Origin: Chitinophaga pinensis
GTDB taxonomy: Bacteria; Bacteroidota; Bacteroidia; B-17B0; Aurantibacillaceae
Assembly (NCBI GenBank): GCA_945860225.1
Contig: CAMAPT010000024.1
Span: 1-42,375, forward strand
Direction: 5' to 3'
Length of the DNA stretch: 42,375 nt
Of the stretch, positions 5,649-34,361 are shown one piece after another; the stretch's first letter is position 1, and the number at the start of each line of letters is the position of its first letter. A program made the position numbers and the translations under genes. The notes under the pieces are model-generated. The model did no database searches and was not told where the DNA came from. It saw only the letters and a list, made by a program, of their open reading frames with translations.

Positions 5649-8219
5649 TTAACGCTTAGTTTCTTGTTCGAAAGTAGATTCAGTGATGACTTCATCATCT
5701 CGGAAATAAGAAATACCTCCCCAATTAAATACTTTCTTTTGATAAACGTTTGCCATATTATTTTTTACAACAACCCGTTGAATAATTACCACACCATTCC
5801 CGGTAATGGTTTCTTCTGTGATACCTTGAGGATACTTAGCAAGTAATGATTTTTGTCTTTGATTAATTTCACTGGCTATATATTCGTCAGATTTCATTAT
5901 TTTTTCAATTTCAATCAAACGCCCTTTTGCGTAAGCATCTCCAACTTTTGAAATTAAAGCTTCTTCATAATTTTTTTTAGCTTCAGCATACCGTTGTGAA
6001 CTAAATAATTGATCTGCTTTAATAATTAGCTGATTATACCTTTCAATTGCCAATTTTCTTGCAGCTGCTGCCTTTTCAGCGGCTAATTTTTTAGCAGCTG
6101 CGATGCGTTCTGCTTCTGCCTTAGCTTTTTCAGCAGCCAAGCGCTCTGCTTCTATTCTTGCTTTCTCTGCTGAGATACGTTCTGCTTCTACCTTAGCTTT
6201 TTCAGCCGCGATGCGCTCTGCTTCAGCCTTTGCTTTCTCTGCGGCAATACGATCAGCCTCTGCTTTCTCAGCCGCTAATTTTTCAGCAGCAATACGCTCT
6301 GCCTCTATTCTAGCTTTCTCTGCTGTTATACGTTCTGCATCTATCCTTGCTTTCTCTGCTGCAATACGTTCTGCTTCAACCTTAGCTTTTTCTGCAGCTA
6401 AACGTTCTGCTTCAGCCTTTGCTTTCTCTTCAGCTAAACGTTCTGATTCTATTCTAGCTTTCTCTGTAGCAATACGTTCTGCTTCTATTTTAGCTTTCTC
6501 CGCAGCAATGCGCTCTGCTTCAGCTTTTGCTTTCTCAGCGGCAATGCGATCTGCTTCTATTTTAGCTTTCTCCGCAGCAATGCTATCTGCTTCAGCTTTT
6601 GCTTTCTCAGCGGCAATACGTTCTGCCGCAACTTTCTCTGCAGCTAATTTTTCAGCAACTATACGCTCTGCTTCAGCCTTTGCTTTCTCTGCTGCCAATC
6701 TATCTGCCTCAACTTTAGCTTTTTCGGCTGCAATTCGTTCTGCCTCTGCTTTTTCTGCCGCCAATCTCTCAGCAACTATACGCTCTGCTTCTATCCTTGC
6801 TTTCTCTGCGGCAATGCGTTCTGCTTCTATTTTAGCTTTTTCGGCTGCAATTCGTTGTGCCTCTGCTTTTTCTGCCACTAATTTCTCAGCCGCCAATCTA
6901 TCTGCTTCTATTTTAGCTTTTTCAGCGGCTAAACGCTCTGCCTCTGCTTTCTCAGCCGCTAATTTCTCAGCTACCAATCTATCTGCCTCAACTTTAGCTT
7001 TCTCTGCAGCTAATTTTTCAGCCTCCAATAAATCTGCTTCTAATTTAGCTTTCTCTGCTGCGATTCTTTCTGCCTCTGCTTTTTCTGCGGCTAATCTCTC
7101 AGCAGCAATACGTTCTGCTTCAGCCTTTGCTTTTTCAGCGGCAAGACGCTCTGCCTCTGCTTTCTCAGCCGCTAATTTCTCAGCTACCAATCTATCTGCT
7201 TCAACTTTTTCTTTCTCTGCTGCGATGAGTTCTGCCTCTGCTTTTTCCGCTGCTATTTTCTCTGCAGCAATGCGCTCTGCTTCTGCCCTGGCATTTTCGA
7301 CTGCAAGACGCTCTGCCTCTGCTTTCTCAGCCGCTAATTTCTCAGCTGCCAATCTATCTGCCTCAACTTTAGCTTTCTCTGCAGCGATACGTTCTGCCTC
7401 TGCTTTTTCAGCCGCTAATTTCTCAGCAGCGATGCGATCTGCTTCTGCCCTGGCTTTTTCAGCTGCAAGACGCTCTGCCTCTGCTTTTTCTGCCGCTAAT
7501 TTCTCTGCGGTAGCCAATTTATCCGCTTCTGTTTTTTCTTTAATTGAATCAATTTTGGCTAACTGATCTTTTGGATAATTTTCATTTGGCTTTAATTGAG
7601 AGGCATTAGCATAATTGGAAATAGCCAAGTCGTAGTTTTTCTTTTGAAATGCTTTGTCCGCAGTTTTTACAGCCGCTTTATACTTTGCTTCCAATTCTTT
7701 AAGTTTAGCTCTAGCTAATTCTTCCTCTTCATGCAATTTTTCTAACGCTAGTAATATTTTTTTAAAATATTCCATATCGAAACCGAAATCATCTCTATCA
7801 GGCAAATACATGTATTTTTGAAGAGGTTGATTAAGAAGTGAGTAATCAATGCCTTCCATTTTTTCAAACAATGAAATATCTGCCTTGATTGGAGTAAAAT
7901 CCTGAAATATTTTATCAATAGGAATACCTTTGGTAGAAATTTGAAATTTTTTAGCGGCAGTTTTAGGTGAAGTAACTAAAACCATGTACTCTGAATTAAA
8001 TGGAAGATTGAATGAATAACGTCCCTTAGAATCTACTTCGTTCTGGAGATACAACTTTGAACCAATAAAAACCTCTACTTTTGCACCAGCCAAAGGCTTA
8101 TCTTCCAAATTAGTGACCCGACCTTCAACATAAACATTGTAAGTTTCCATTTCATTTTGAGAAAAACAAACAGACCATCTGCACAATGAAAATATTAAAA
8201 TGAAAAAAAGATATTTCAT
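5649..8219 (-). CDS. Exported protein with carboxypeptidase-regulatory-like domain and long Ala/Glu/Lys repeat helix
   Basis: The product is 856 residues. Residues 1-20 form a signal peptide ending in VCFS. Residues ~28-105 resemble a carboxypeptidase-regulatory-like beta-sandwich (GRVTNLEDKPLAGAKVEVF, then a DSKGRYSF segment). A TPR-like helix pair follows at ~185-220 (AFQKKNYDLAISNYANASQL). Residues ~225-727 are near-perfect repeats built from IAAEKAKxEAER-type 12-residue and xAAEKLAAEKAEAER-type 15-residue units. A second TPR-like pair (LFSSQRYAEAKKNYEEAL) starts at ~737. The C-terminal ~60 residues carry a conserved-looking FNWGGISYFRDD segment. The protein is probably a periplasmic or envelope spacer. 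The two TPR-like halves flanking the repeat suggest the repeat expanded inside an ancestral TPR protein. Function is unknown. The start is the ATG preceding the signal peptide. Confidence 0.85.
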   Translation of the reverse strand: MKYLFFILIFSLCRWSVCFSQNEMETYNVYVEGRVTNLEDKPLAGAKVEVFIGSKLYLQNEVDSKGRYSFNLPFNSEYMVLVTSPKTAAKKFQISTKGIPIDKIFQDFTPIKADISLFEKMEGIDYSLLNQPLQKYMYLPDRDDFGFDMEYFKKILLALEKLHEEEELARAKLKELEAKYKAAVKTADKAFQKKNYDLAISNYANASQLKPNENYPKDQLAKIDSIKEKTEADKLATAEKLAAEKAEAERLAAEKARAEADRIAAEKLAAEKAEAERIAAEKAKVEADRLAAEKLAAEKAEAERLAVENARAEAERIAAEKIAAEKAEAELIAAEKEKVEADRLVAEKLAAEKAEAERLAAEKAKAEAERIAAERLAAEKAEAERIAAEKAKLEADLLEAEKLAAEKAKVEADRLVAEKLAAEKAEAERLAAEKAKIEADRLAAEKLVAEKAEAQRIAAEKAKIEAERIAAEKARIEAERIVAERLAAEKAEAERIAAEKAKVEADRLAAEKAKAEAERIVAEKLAAEKVAAERIAAEKAKAEADSIAAEKAKIEADRIAAEKAKAEAERIAAEKAKIEAERIATEKARIESERLAEEKAKAEAERLAAEKAKVEAERIAAEKARIDAERITAEKARIEAERIAAEKLAAEKAEADRIAAEKAKAEAERIAAEKAKVEAERISAEKARIEAERLAAEKAKAEAERIAAAKKLAAEKAAAARKLAIERYNQLIIKADQLFSSQRYAEAKKNYEEALISKVGDAYAKGRLIEIEKIMKSDEYIASEINQRQKSLLAKYPQGITEETITGNGVVIIQRVVVKNNMANVYQKKVFNWGGISYFRDDEVITESTFEQETKR
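6040..7547 (-). repeat. Degenerate tandem repeat encoding the Ala/Glu/Lys helix
   Basis: About 1.5 kb of coding DNA is built from related 36-bp and 45-bp units, each encoding variants of AEKAKxEAERIA and AEKLAAEKAEAER. Units differ mostly at silent and conservative positions, so it is an old or recombining coding repeat rather than a recent perfect duplication. Such arrays tend to vary in copy number between strains. Confidence 0.85.
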
Positions 8220-31158: not shown

Positions 31159-32043
31159 ATGAAAAAATCAATCGCTTTAGTAGCAATGGCATTCGGTGTA
31201 ACCTCTGCATTTGCTCAAGATTTAACTTCAAAAAAAGGTGAGCCATTTTTACCAGAAGCTGGTGACTATGCTATCGGTATTGATGCTACTCCATTCTTAA
31301 ATTATGCTGGTAATTTTTTCGGTAAAGGTGCAGCTAACGTAGCTCCAACTTTTGATTTCCATAACACTAACTACGTTATCACTGGAAAAAAATTCAAAGA
31401 TGCTAACAATGCATACCGTGCAAGTTTACGTGTAGGTTTATCTAAATATACTTCAAAAGCTCAAGTAATTGATGCTGGTATTACCTCAGCACCAACTTAC
31501 CCTGCTTTACCTTCAATGAAAGAAGATAAAGGTTCTTTTGGTAGCACTAATGTTGCTTTATCAGCTGGTGTTGAAAAACGTCGTGGTAAAACTCGTTTAC
31601 AAGGTGTATATGGCGCTGAAGCTGCTTTAGGTTTAACTTCTTCTTCAGAAAAATACACTTATGGTAATGCATTATCTACAACTGTTGATGTTGTAAATTA
31701 TGCTACTACTGATTTCGGTAACAATATCGTTGCTGATACTTATGGTAACGCTGCTCGTATCACTAAAAACAAAGCTGGTGCATTCTTTACAATTGGTGCT
31801 CGTGCTTTCGTAGGTGCTGAATACTTTGTTGCTCCAAAAATCTCTATCGGTGGTGAATTTGGTTGGGGTCTAGGTTTAGGTATCCAAGGTAAATCTACTA
31901 CAACTATCGAATCTACAAACGGAACATCTGTTGGTACTCAAGAAATTACTGGTGACAAATTCTCTGCTATCGTTTTAGATACAGATAATACTAATACTTT
32001 CTTTGGTCCATCTGCATCTTTACGTTTAAACTTACATTTCTAA
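31159..32043 (+). CDS. Abundant outer-membrane beta-barrel protein, function unknown
   Basis: The product is 294 residues with a clear signal peptide (MKKSIALVAMAFGVTSAFAQ). The mature part alternates polar and hydrophobic residues with Gly/aromatic strands (AYRASLRVGLSKYT, GAFFTIGARAFVGAEYFV, ISIGGEFGWGLGLGIQG) and ends in SASLRLNLHF, a terminal phenylalanine typical of barrel insertion. Codon choice is strongly biased (GGT, GCT, CGT, ACT, AAC) relative to its neighbours, indicating very high expression. It has its own promoter and a strong terminator, so it is monocistronic. No specific porin family was recognised. Confidence 0.85.
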   Translation: MKKSIALVAMAFGVTSAFAQDLTSKKGEPFLPEAGDYAIGIDATPFLNYAGNFFGKGAANVAPTFDFHNTNYVITGKKFKDANNAYRASLRVGLSKYTSKAQVIDAGITSAPTYPALPSMKEDKGSFGSTNVALSAGVEKRRGKTRLQGVYGAEAALGLTSSSEKYTYGNALSTTVDVVNYATTDFGNNIVADTYGNAARITKNKAGAFFTIGARAFVGAEYFVAPKISIGGEFGWGLGLGIQGKSTTTIESTNGTSVGTQEITGDKFSAIVLDTDNTNTFFGPSASLRLNLHF

Positions 32044-32067
32044 GCAGATTACTAAGTATACTACTAG

Positions 32068-32093
32068 AAAAACCTCGCAAATGCGAGGTTTTT
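32068..32093 (+). terminator. Strong intrinsic terminator of the outer-membrane protein gene
   Basis: AAAAACCTCGCA (32068-32079) and TGCGAGGTTTTT (32082-32093) form a GC-rich stem with a 2-4 nt loop, followed by further Ts to 32096. It starts 24 bp after the stop codon. Confidence 0.93.
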
Positions 32094-32115
32094 TTTATGT
32101 CTTAAAATATTTTAC

Positions 32116-32221
32116 TGACGGAATTAATATAAAAATAAATTTATAAGTGACGGAATTTAAATTAATTTAGATATTTAACTGACGGAATTAATTCAAAAAT
32201 AGATTTTTAAGTGACGGAATT
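32116..32221 (+). repeat. Four TGACGGAATT boxes at exact 32-bp spacing
   Basis: Identical decamers TGACGGAATT begin at 32116, 32148, 32180 and 32212, each exactly 32 bp apart. The base before the box alternates C, G, C, G and the flanks also alternate, so the array is two copies of a 64-bp unit, each with two 32-bp half-units. Spacers are 22 bp and AT-rich. The array lies between the terminator of the upstream gene and the -7 box of the AAA/DUF4143 gene, as expected for an operator or activator array. A fifth exact box lies inside the gene at 32554-32563. Confidence 0.9.
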
Positions 32222-32235
32222 TGAAATACAATAAC

Positions 32236-32243
32236 TATATTTG
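32236..32243 (+). promoter_or_regulatory. -7 box TATATTTG of the AAA/DUF4143 gene
   Basis: This is an exact TAnnTTTG match ending 17 bp before the ATG at 32261. The last TGACGGAATT box ends 14 bp upstream of it, close to where the -33 region would lie; no properly spaced TTG is present. Confidence 0.5.
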
Positions 32244-32260
32244 TCTATACATTATAAATA

Positions 32261-33397
32261 ATGGCTATTATACAAAGATATTTAGAGCAAGTTATACTCA
32301 ACAGATTAAAGCCTAATAAAGTAATGATTATTGTAGGTGCAAGGCGAGTTGGCAAAACTGAATTAGTAAAACAATTACTTAAAAAAATAGATGAAAAACC
32401 CCTAATTTTAAATGGTGATGATATTGAAACCATCAATGCACTTGCTGTAAAATCACTTTCAAACTACAAACGATTATTAGGTAATACAAAATTATTAATA
32501 ATAGATGAAGCCCAAGAAATACCAGATATTGGAGCCAAATTAAAATTAATGATTGACGGAATTGACGGATTAAAAATTATAGCTACCGGCTCGTCGGTGT
32601 TTGATTTGAATAATAATTTAGGGGAGCCTTTAGTGGGGCGCAAAACAACGTTTCATTTATATCCTTTAGCTCAATTGGAATTTTCGTTAACCGAAAATTA
32701 TATGGAGACAAAATCTAAATTAGAGGATCGTTTAATTTTTGGTTCCTATCCCGAGCTAGAACACTTAGAAAACAAACTAGATAAAATAAATTATTTAAAA
32801 GAACAAGTTAATTCATATTTATTAAAAGATGTATTAGCATTTGAAGGAATTAAAAAGCGAGAAAAAATAGTTGAATTATTAAAGATTTTAGCCTTTAGAA
32901 TTGGAAGTGAAATATCATTGGAAGGTATTGGAAACGAATTACAAATAAGTAAAAATACCGTAGAAAAATACCTTGATTTATTTACTAAAGTATTTATCTT
33001 AAAAAAAATAACCGGTTTTAGTAGAAATTTAGACAATGAGATAACTAAAAAAAACAAATGGTATTTTTTAGATAATGGTATCAGAAATGCCTTAATTAAT
33101 AATTTTAATAATTTAGATTCGAGAAATGATACAGGCCAACTTTGGGAAAATTATTTAAATTACGAACGCATTAAATTTTTAGAATATAAGGGCATACATT
33201 GCTCTGACTATTTCTGGCGTACGCATTCAAAACAAGAAATTGACCGTATAGAAGAATTAAATGGTAGTTTAAATGCATACGAATATAAATGGAGTGTAAA
33301 CGCAAAAGAAAAAATTCCTGAACTTTTTATAAAAGGTTACCCCGATGCAAAATTCACTTTTGTAAATTCTTCTAATTACTTAGACTTTATTACATAA
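32261..33397 (+). CDS. AAA-family ATPase with DUF4143 / nuclease-like C-terminus
   Basis: The product is 378 residues. The N-terminal ATPase has Walker A GARRVGKT (26-33) and Walker B LLIIDEAQEI (D82, E83), followed by the sensor-like IIATGSSVFDL. The middle region has a winged-helix look (ELQISKNTVEKYLDLFTKVF, ~228-247), then YFLDNGIRNALINNF and LWENYLNYERIKF, typical of DUF4143. The C-terminus has EID (326-328) and EYK (341-343), the spacing of a PD-(D/E)xK nuclease core. These ATPases are widespread, often multicopy and of unknown function. The phased box array directly upstream is the notable feature of this one. It is monocistronic by context. Confidence 0.88.
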   Translation: MAIIQRYLEQVILNRLKPNKVMIIVGARRVGKTELVKQLLKKIDEKPLILNGDDIETINALAVKSLSNYKRLLGNTKLLIIDEAQEIPDIGAKLKLMIDGIDGLKIIATGSSVFDLNNNLGEPLVGRKTTFHLYPLAQLEFSLTENYMETKSKLEDRLIFGSYPELEHLENKLDKINYLKEQVNSYLLKDVLAFEGIKKREKIVELLKILAFRIGSEISLEGIGNELQISKNTVEKYLDLFTKVFILKKITGFSRNLDNEITKKNKWYFLDNGIRNALINNFNNLDSRNDTGQLWENYLNYERIKFLEYKGIHCSDYFWRTHSKQEIDRIEELNGSLNAYEYKWSVNAKEKIPELFIKGYPDAKFTFVNSSNYLDFIT

Positions 33398-33506
33398 AAC
33401 TTTAAAATTTTCAATTTCTCGTTTAATATTTGTCTTTTTTAAAGGACCGATTAACTTTTAAAATAATTTAGTTTTTTGTATTTTTATTCCAATAAATTCG
33501 TCCTTC

Positions 33507-34361
33507 ATGAAAATTATCGAATGTCCAAGAGATGCTATGCAAGGCATCAAAGAAATAATTCCAACTGAGGTAAAAGTTAAATACTTAAATTCATTACTCA
33601 ACATTGGGTTTGATACAATAGATTTTGGAAGTTTTGTTTCACCAAAAGCTATCCCTCAAATGCATGATACAGCCAATGTTTTAAAGCAATTAAATATATC
33701 AACATCATCTAGTAAATTATTGGCCATAATTGCCAATATTAGAGGTGCCCAAGATGCTTGCTGCTTTGATGAAATTAATTATTTAGGATTCCCTTTTTCA
33801 ATATCTGAAACTTTTCAGCAACGTAATACCAATTCAAGTATTTCTGAATCATTAATTAGAATTGATGAAATACAAAACCTTTGCGTAAAATACAATAAAG
33901 AATTGGTCATATATATTTCAATGGCTTTTGGTAATCCTTATGGGGATAAATGGAATAGCGACATCGTTATTGAATGGACAAAAAAACTGAATCAGTTAGG
34001 AATTAAAATTATTGCCTTATCAGATACTATAGGTGTGTCTGATCACGAAAATATTTCATATTTATTTTCAAATATTATTCCTGAATTTAAACATATCGAA
34101 ATAGGGGCGCATCTTCACACAACCAAGGATAAAGCTCTGGAAAAAATTGATGCGGCTTATAAAAGTGGTTGCAATAGATTTGATGTTGCCATTCATGGTT
34201 TTGGTGGCTGTCCTATGGCAAAAGATGATTTAACAGGTAATTTAGCAACAGAAGATTTGGAGAATTATCTTGTAAATAATAATATAAATCACCAATTAAA
34301 TATTGATTTATTGCAAAACGCCTACTCTGAAAGTTGGAGAGTCTTTAATAATTACCATTAA
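33507..34361 (+). CDS. Hydroxymethylglutaryl-CoA lyase (HMGL-like)
   Basis: The enzyme cleaves HMG-CoA to acetoacetate and acetyl-CoA, the end of leucine catabolism. The 284-residue TIM-barrel has ECPRDAMQGI at the N-terminus (PRDGLQ in most lyases, with Arg and Asp conserved), IDFGSFVSPKAIPQM, the GAHLHTT metal-binding histidines and the flexible catalytic loop GGCPMAKDDLTGNLATEDL carrying the active cysteine. Its length is near normal. It converges on der with a 46-bp gap. No other leucine-degradation genes are visible. Confidence 0.9.
   Translation: MKIIECPRDAMQGIKEIIPTEVKVKYLNSLLNIGFDTIDFGSFVSPKAIPQMHDTANVLKQLNISTSSSKLLAIIANIRGAQDACCFDEINYLGFPFSISETFQQRNTNSSISESLIRIDEIQNLCVKYNKELVIYISMAFGNPYGDKWNSDIVIEWTKKLNQLGIKIIALSDTIGVSDHENISYLFSNIIPEFKHIEIGAHLHTTKDKALEKIDAAYKSGCNRFDVAIHGFGGCPMAKDDLTGNLATEDLENYLVNNNINHQLNIDLLQNAYSESWRVFNNYH

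Follow-up and report, generated by a model that had tools for sequence, protein, structure and literature searches.

An array of 32-bp repeats at the promoter of a PDC-S01 ATPase gene, a probable binding platform for the ATPase itself

The window, by which the whole analysed stretch of 42,375 nucleotides is meant, carries a tandem array directly upstream of an ATPase gene of the AAA_14/DUF4143 family, which we take to be COG1373. The following features could be assigned to this region.

About 32071..32097, + strand: hairpin resembling a terminator, downstream of the preceding gene and at the left edge of the array region, read by eye from the sequence
32107..32227, + strand: tandem array with 32-bp and 64-bp periods, upstream of the ATPase gene
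32116..32125, + strand: box 1, TGACGGAATT
32148..32157, + strand: box 2, TGACGGAATT
32180..32189, + strand: box 3, TGACGGAATT
32212..32221, + strand: box 4, TGACGGAATT, just 5' of the -7 box
32236..32243, + strand: TATATTTG, fitting the Bacteroidota -7 box TAnnTTTG
32261..33397, + strand: ATPase ORF of 378 aa, AAA_14 + winged helix + DUF4143 (PD-(D/E)XK-like), PADLOC PDC-S01
32948..32956, + strand: codons S230-K231-N232, where the predicted recognition helix begins; family-wide, these residues go with the array motif
33242..33289, + strand: D328 ... E341-x-K343, intact and in conserved columns, putative D/ExK catalytic motif of the nuclease domain

The four identical TGACGGAATT decamers described in an earlier note on this DNA were all recovered, with starts at 32116, 32148, 32180 and 32212 and steps of exactly 32 bp. 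Tandem Repeats Finder called the 32-bp array at 32116-32221 (score 135) as well as a 64-bp unit at 32107-32227 (score 200, 89% matches), in agreement with the duplicated, alternating 64-bp unit that had been noticed before. The array also occupies the gap between the terminator-like hairpin of the upstream gene and TATATTTG, the putative -7 box of the ATPase gene, in keeping with the note. TATATTTG was identified by means of TAnnTTTG, presumably the Bacteroidota -7 consensus; 14 bases separate it from box 4, which we assume to lie where the -33 region would be, and 17 bases lie between its end and the ATG of the ATPase. With up to one mismatch to TGACGGAATT, ten sites were found in the window, five of them exact, against a shuffle mean of 2.98 and none of 100 shuffles reaching ten. 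The fifth exact copy, at 32554, is located within the coding frame (...IDGIDG...). The intervening inverted half-sites are degenerate in the window and match just 2-6 of 10 letters. A reading of the region as a single-strand DNA hairpin was rejected, since with DNA parameters the fold of the array region is unremarkable (z = 0.04). Across the 2.9 Mb of the genome, the paired pattern matched at the array locus only (three overlapping matches), with no match for the control pattern. Elsewhere in the window, long tandem repeats with periods of 36, 81 and 162 bp are present at 6106-7529, perhaps encoding a repetitive coiled-coil protein.

Both Pfam domains of the ATPase scored above their curated cut-offs (DUF4143 118.8 bits against 28.1, AAA_14 92.8 against 27), and the protein matched the PADLOC PDC-S01 model PDLC04789 with an E-value of 2.8e-150. 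Among 57 sequences G31, K32, D82, E83 and D328 are invariant, while E341 and K343 are kept in at least 90%; the window ATPase has all of these residues. The assignment of D328 ... E341-x-K343 as the catalytic PD-(D/E)XK motif is our assumption, and so is the Walker assignment. A sequence search for a solved structure of this ATPase found none. An AlphaFold2 model was obtained with a mean pLDDT of 91.2, whose secondary structure we interpret as an AAA+ domain followed by a lid, a winged helix (about residues 198-270) and a PD-(D/E)XK-like domain (about 271-378). Helix 231-243 is the predicted recognition helix, and residues 230-232 lie at its start. The same genome encodes one further, distant relative, a PF01637 ATPase_2 protein with weak DUF4143/DUF234 matches (G000:C7). 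Its gene is preceded by a palindromic repeat of its own, TATTATGGTGCCAAA/TTTGGCACCA (L195:509-625), consisting of two 52-nt copies spaced 65 bp. The habit of carrying an array may thus extend to a sister family.

For a comparison across the family, homologues were gathered from 100, 87 and 395 genomes, one contig scan and further fetched stretches. Of the first 47 loci, 46 went into a profile HMM, which leaves out the truncated L024. Genes were excluded if they were shorter than 320 aa, if the profile covered them incompletely or if they had no usable start codon. There were 141 full-length genes, or 127 after removal of redundancy by k-mer similarity, and 170 bp upstream of each gene were scanned for repeats. 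The best upstream repeat had a shift of 31-33 bp in 93 of the 127 homologues, and of exactly 32 bp in 77. The corresponding numbers for the controls were 30/635 for shuffles, 9/125 downstream, 2/127 in coding sequence and 4/120 at 430-600 bp upstream. The fuller form of the array consists of inverted half-sites alternating every 16 bp, this also being the commonest centre-to-centre distance in the 38 loci with at least two strong palindromes. The geometry is constant while the motif varies by subfamily.

Close relatives lacking the boxes, which according to the earlier note would speak against its proposal, were not encountered: a 31-33-bp repeat is present in each of the 19 homologues of our set that reach 60% identity to the window protein, with a score of at least 12 in 17 of them and of 10-12 in two. 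At 40-45% identity a repeat scoring at least 12 was found in 26 of 44 homologues, and below 35% in one of seven. Altogether 43 of the 127 homologues have no 30-34-bp repeat of that score; 28 of these 43 carry a palindrome scoring at least 10, compared with 13 of 215 shuffles. Outside the Bacteroidota and their relatives, ten database loci were picked by hand among 60 of 517 plasmid records and among 18 phage records. One of them, an archaeal homologue of about 25% identity on a Methanosphaera plasmid, has three 32-bp repeats. The other nine include a Bacteroides locus (L197) with a 33-bp repeat of score 15, a locus (L206) with a weaker 32-bp repeat within a 62-base palindrome, and three (L200, L203, L205) with palindromes near the start codon; the remaining four of the ten showed no clear array.

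The linkage of array and gene was also seen when the motif was searched for first. Three such patterns gave hits in 5/297, 3/395 and 3/395 genomes, with one locus each and no match for the reversed controls, and ten of the 11 bacterial loci found in this way lie directly upstream of an AAA/DUF4143 gene. The exception (L211, G482:C9) is an intact GGTGA-class array with no ATPase within the fetched 3 kb; this array follows a gene read as a Cys/Met-metabolism enzyme. A comparison of the sites after the OMP gene, in which nine of 18 loci were readable by script, showed both array and ATPase in G005, neither of them in G003, G004 and G011, and in G015 a decayed array with no real ATPase match (best E 0.54) in the 5.6 kb examined. 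In the window itself the gene order at 32043-33507 is OMP-ATPase-HMGL; in relatives the HMGL gene has different neighbours, which suggests a rearrangement at the right border.

The position of the array relative to the promoter is shared as well. TAnnTTTG was present within 70 bp of the start codon in 52 of 84 loci with a strong array, compared with 0/84 in a coding control and 1/84 far upstream, and in these 52 loci a median of 6 nt separates the end of the array from the box. Sites at the gene's own promoter, as expected of an operator, are thus found in the window and in these 52 loci, and this place beside the -7 box is where a repressor would sit.

Subfamily cores include TGACGGAATT, TGACAAAATT, GGTGA/TCACC, GGATT/AATCC, CGGTTT and others. 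Co-divergence of array and protein was analysed on the 84 loci with a 30-34-bp repeat scoring at least 12. Array similarity rises with protein identity (Mantel rho 0.556, reached in none of 500 permutations), from a median of 9.4 at 35-40% identity to 53 above 70%, which could be plain co-inheritance. After correction for identity, column 232 ranked first of all columns, with 0.49 against a maximum of 0.24 in 60 permutations. Column 230 (0.29) followed, and columns 68, 178 and 121 were likewise above the permuted maximum, which columns 231 (0.24) and 227 (0.23) do not clearly exceed. The triple 230-232 was the first of 262 windows in pairs below 45% identity and the first of 284 below 48%; in pairs below 42% it was second of 226, behind window 179. 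Windows 178-179, 265-267 and 120 score high too. Identity over the complete winged helix has no explanatory value once whole-protein identity is accounted for (partial -0.02), so that specificity of the whole domain was dropped and the claim restricted to positions of the helix.

Particular residues go together with particular cores. TGAC occurs in 39/41 loci with S/N230 and N232 against 3/43 others, GTGA in 6/6 with D230 and N232 against 8/78, GGA in 12/12 with K232 against 23/72, and CGGTT in 4/6 with E232 against 0/78; these pairs were selected after the residue/motif table had been viewed, and the Fisher tests and permutations ignore kinship. The correlation is partly due to shared ancestry, because 36 of the 46 same-triple pairs of low identity involve a single lineage, L147/L148. 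Without this lineage, ten same-triple pairs are left, with a difference of 4.6 against a permuted maximum of 0.89. Where N232 is absent (37 loci), arrays resembled each other more if residue 232 was shared, with 12.5 against 9.9 and a difference of at most 1.5 under permutation. A tree from which the winged helix was omitted gave 2-4 strictly independent pairs per trait on its supported branches, too few for significance singly. These pairs mostly run in the expected direction, and five of the six trait pairs average 0.0 opposite; for N232 alone, 1.6 were with, 0.3 against and 2.1 without difference. Hardly any other stretch appears to follow the motif as well as residues 230-232, in a comparison with few independent lineages. 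One genome (G313) carries four AAA/DUF4143 paralogues (at L161, L147 and L172), two of which are neighbours on one contig, and the four arrays differ from one another.

These computed features point to the array as the binding platform of the adjacent ATPase, a reading to which we give a probability of roughly 0.7: the winged helix would bind the DNA, the protein would assemble on the 32-bp sites, and it would repress its own gene. Judged from sequence, the ATPase probably binds its own array. In the proposed mechanism, the winged helix between the AAA+ and nuclease domains would read the half-sites (TGAC-GGAATT in the window), with residues 230-232 at the start of the recognition helix setting the sequence that is read. 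Several ATPase molecules would then assemble, perhaps cooperatively, on sites spaced by 32 bp, or by 16 bp where inverted half-sites alternate. Since the array ends beside the -7 box, its occupancy should block the promoter, and the ATPase would in this way repress its own gene. Expression would rise once the ATPase is titrated or consumed, as phage DNA with the same array might do; any role in defence is inferred as well. The earlier note had already suggested a binding platform for the ATPase. This part is strongly, if indirectly, supported by the linkage, the constant 32-bp geometry and a motif that appears to follow the predicted recognition-helix residues. The simple row of boxes had to be revised, as fuller arrays have inverted half-sites every 16 bp and the motif is specific to the subfamily.

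Copies of the array were found in phages. The exact paired decamer matched seven IMG/VR stretches, with no match for the reversed pattern. Two looser patterns, which have no reversed control, matched five stretches each and added L112-L114 and L207-L209, giving 13 distinct viral records with a TGAC-class array, or about seven groups by our own reading of shared genes. With a relaxed pattern, every one of these records yielded one array (control 0), and several of the arrays have half-sites beyond those in the search pattern. Genes sampled near them include portal, terminase, replicative helicase and endolysin genes. In one phage (L113) a 26-mer of the array recurs unchanged in the array of a chromosomal ATPase (G525), the outer spacers being different. 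Eleven of the 13 arrays have no TAnnTTTG box within 45 bp and are therefore not like ATPase-type promoters. Three records (L102, L105 and L208) have a common stretch CTGGGCYATATATCGG after the array, which in L208 continues with a palindromic partner; CTGGGCYATATATCGG is another conserved element adjoining the phage array.

By the Pfam model, DUF4143 was detected in none of the ten array-bearing viral records that were searched whole, and our own HMM found no DUF4143 ATPase in the other three (L209 whole, L207 and L208 as fetched stretches). As far as searched, these phages thus carry the site without the reader, and the records may be fragments. A phage-encoded ATPase was also looked for in the viral contigs at large and given up: a single-protein search gave no match and an alignment search a single partial one (L210), both with short peptide patterns that can miss relatives. 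In INPHARED, DUF4143 is present in 18 of 50,697 records, 15 of them named 'Bacteriophage sp.', and a 101-base phage array used as query gave chance-level matches only (best E 0.9). The TTGGTGA class gave no match in viral contigs, so phage copies are established for the TGAC class only. The phage arrays could serve as a decoy, as borrowed regulation or as a cleavage target.

A different use of the array would be as the DNA target of the ATPase-nuclease, i.e. a loading or licensing site at which gene regulation is secondary, with the protein acting on the arrays of phages. Such a target would suit a nuclease motif that the family conserves and the window ATPase has intact, the presence of the array in viral records, in which the reversed exact pattern had no match, and the unlikeness of most phage copies to a promoter of the ATPase type. 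A phage that is cut should lose its array, yet contigs with shared genes keep it (L100/L103, L112-L114), and the chromosomal arrays lie at the gene's own promoter, which would be a target too; we regard this explanation as unlikely. It is clearly more doubtful still that the arrays are the ends of a small mobile element carrying the ATPase gene. The array palindrome on both sides of the gene, with a score that none of 20 shuffles reached, was found in seven of 46 loci (L012, L016, L029, L031, L032, L033, L035), and three loci (L084, L086, L088) share the next gene with G005 (L095) but have neither array nor ATPase. Most loci, the window included, have no downstream copy, and 36 of the 46 do not beat shuffles. 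When both ends were compared, three of 20 shuffles were as good for L006, with the same figure given for the window; L011 and L042 beat shuffles weakly, and L025 does so by a stretch other than the array. Filled and empty sites are too diverged for a target-site duplication to be read, and an operator combined with horizontal transfer accounts for the empty sites. An element with terminal repeats was rejected on these grounds, matching repeats at both ends being absent from the window and from most of the 46 loci.

A marginally smaller chance is given to a different host regulator that binds the array and has the ATPase gene as merely one of its targets. The promoter position would suit any regulator, and in G482 an intact array stands without an adjoining ATPase. 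Against this, the paired pattern occurs once in its own genome and elsewhere nearly only beside such genes, arrays of paralogues within one genome differ (11 of 12 pairs score at most 10.4, the exception being G473 with 19.4), and the motif varies with residues of the ATPase. Slippage generates short tandem repeats, and an ordinary minisatellite without function could have come about in this way. The constant period with differing sequences in a large family and in the archaeal homologue, the rarity of such repeats in control regions and the linkage to the ATPase gene make this explanation highly improbable. The minisatellite was rejected also with respect to unlinked copies, which the earlier note had named as a sign of it: there is one array in the genome, and in other genomes it lies nearly always beside such a gene, as in ten of the 11 bacterial loci.

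The binding of the ATPase to its own array with repression of its gene is therefore kept as the preferred reading. A wider reading is put forward tentatively, and it may well prove wrong: PDC-S01 ATPases would be sequence-addressed, each with a private array address set by three residues of the helix, while phage copies would draw off or borrow the protein and an arms race would diversify the addresses.

PDC-S01, an ATPase fused to PD-(D/E)XK, belongs to the most common candidate defence proteins of bacteria and archaea; it is ranked as the fourth most common defence across prokaryotes, and validation is given as pending for most PDCs (PMC12988326). Among single loci in rumen genomes it is reported to be the most frequent one (PMC13356809), and a Thermus AAA_14/DUF4143 gene is tabled within a section on gene-expression changes in a further paper (PMC4406477). 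In the portions of the open-access literature that were searched, no account was found of an array in cis, a code in the recognition helix or copies in phages for PDC-S01, nor was a mechanism for it in the parts that were examined. A linked DNA site for each member together with a readable helix code leads to bench-ready questions on binding, repression, loading, cutting and phage copies, and the phage copies of the array are a direct way to test the role of the protein. The family may supply natural ATPase-nucleases with target sites written beside their genes.

The ATPase of the window matches the model of the PADLOC candidate defence protein PDC-S01 and has the same domain make-up. The best structural matches of its model were the archaeal AAA+ ATPases SSO1545 (2fna) and PABY2304 (2qen), with VIA-align 2 Z-scores of 16.7 and 16.5 over about 260 residues at an rmsd of 3.6. 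These alignments end near residue 280, so that the nuclease domain was barely compared, and a shared fold shows no function. The STAND-like ATPases CED-4 and plant NLRs reached a Z-score of about 14. Foldseek also listed RuvB, with a low TM-score.

Orc1/Cdc6 initiators have an AAA+ domain and a winged helix, an architecture that the window ATPase may share. The Foldseek E-value to 2qby was 4.2e-7 but the TM-score 0.33, and 2qby_B aligned to the model with a Z-score of 12.4 and an rmsd of 9.1. Origin recognition boxes of Orc1/Cdc6 are repeated boxes near the protein's own gene, and in this the likeness to the array consists; the PDC-S01 family differs by its nuclease domain. The operators of autoregulated toxin-antitoxin systems, of AbiEi and of restriction-modification systems are repeats at the gene's own promoter which are bound by the DNA-binding product. 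The likeness lies in these repeats and in a product that binds DNA, which for PDC-S01 is predicted. Unlike these operators, PDC-S01 combines the ATPase, the predicted reader and the nuclease in one protein, and its 32-bp array is fixed in geometry while the motifs are diversified.
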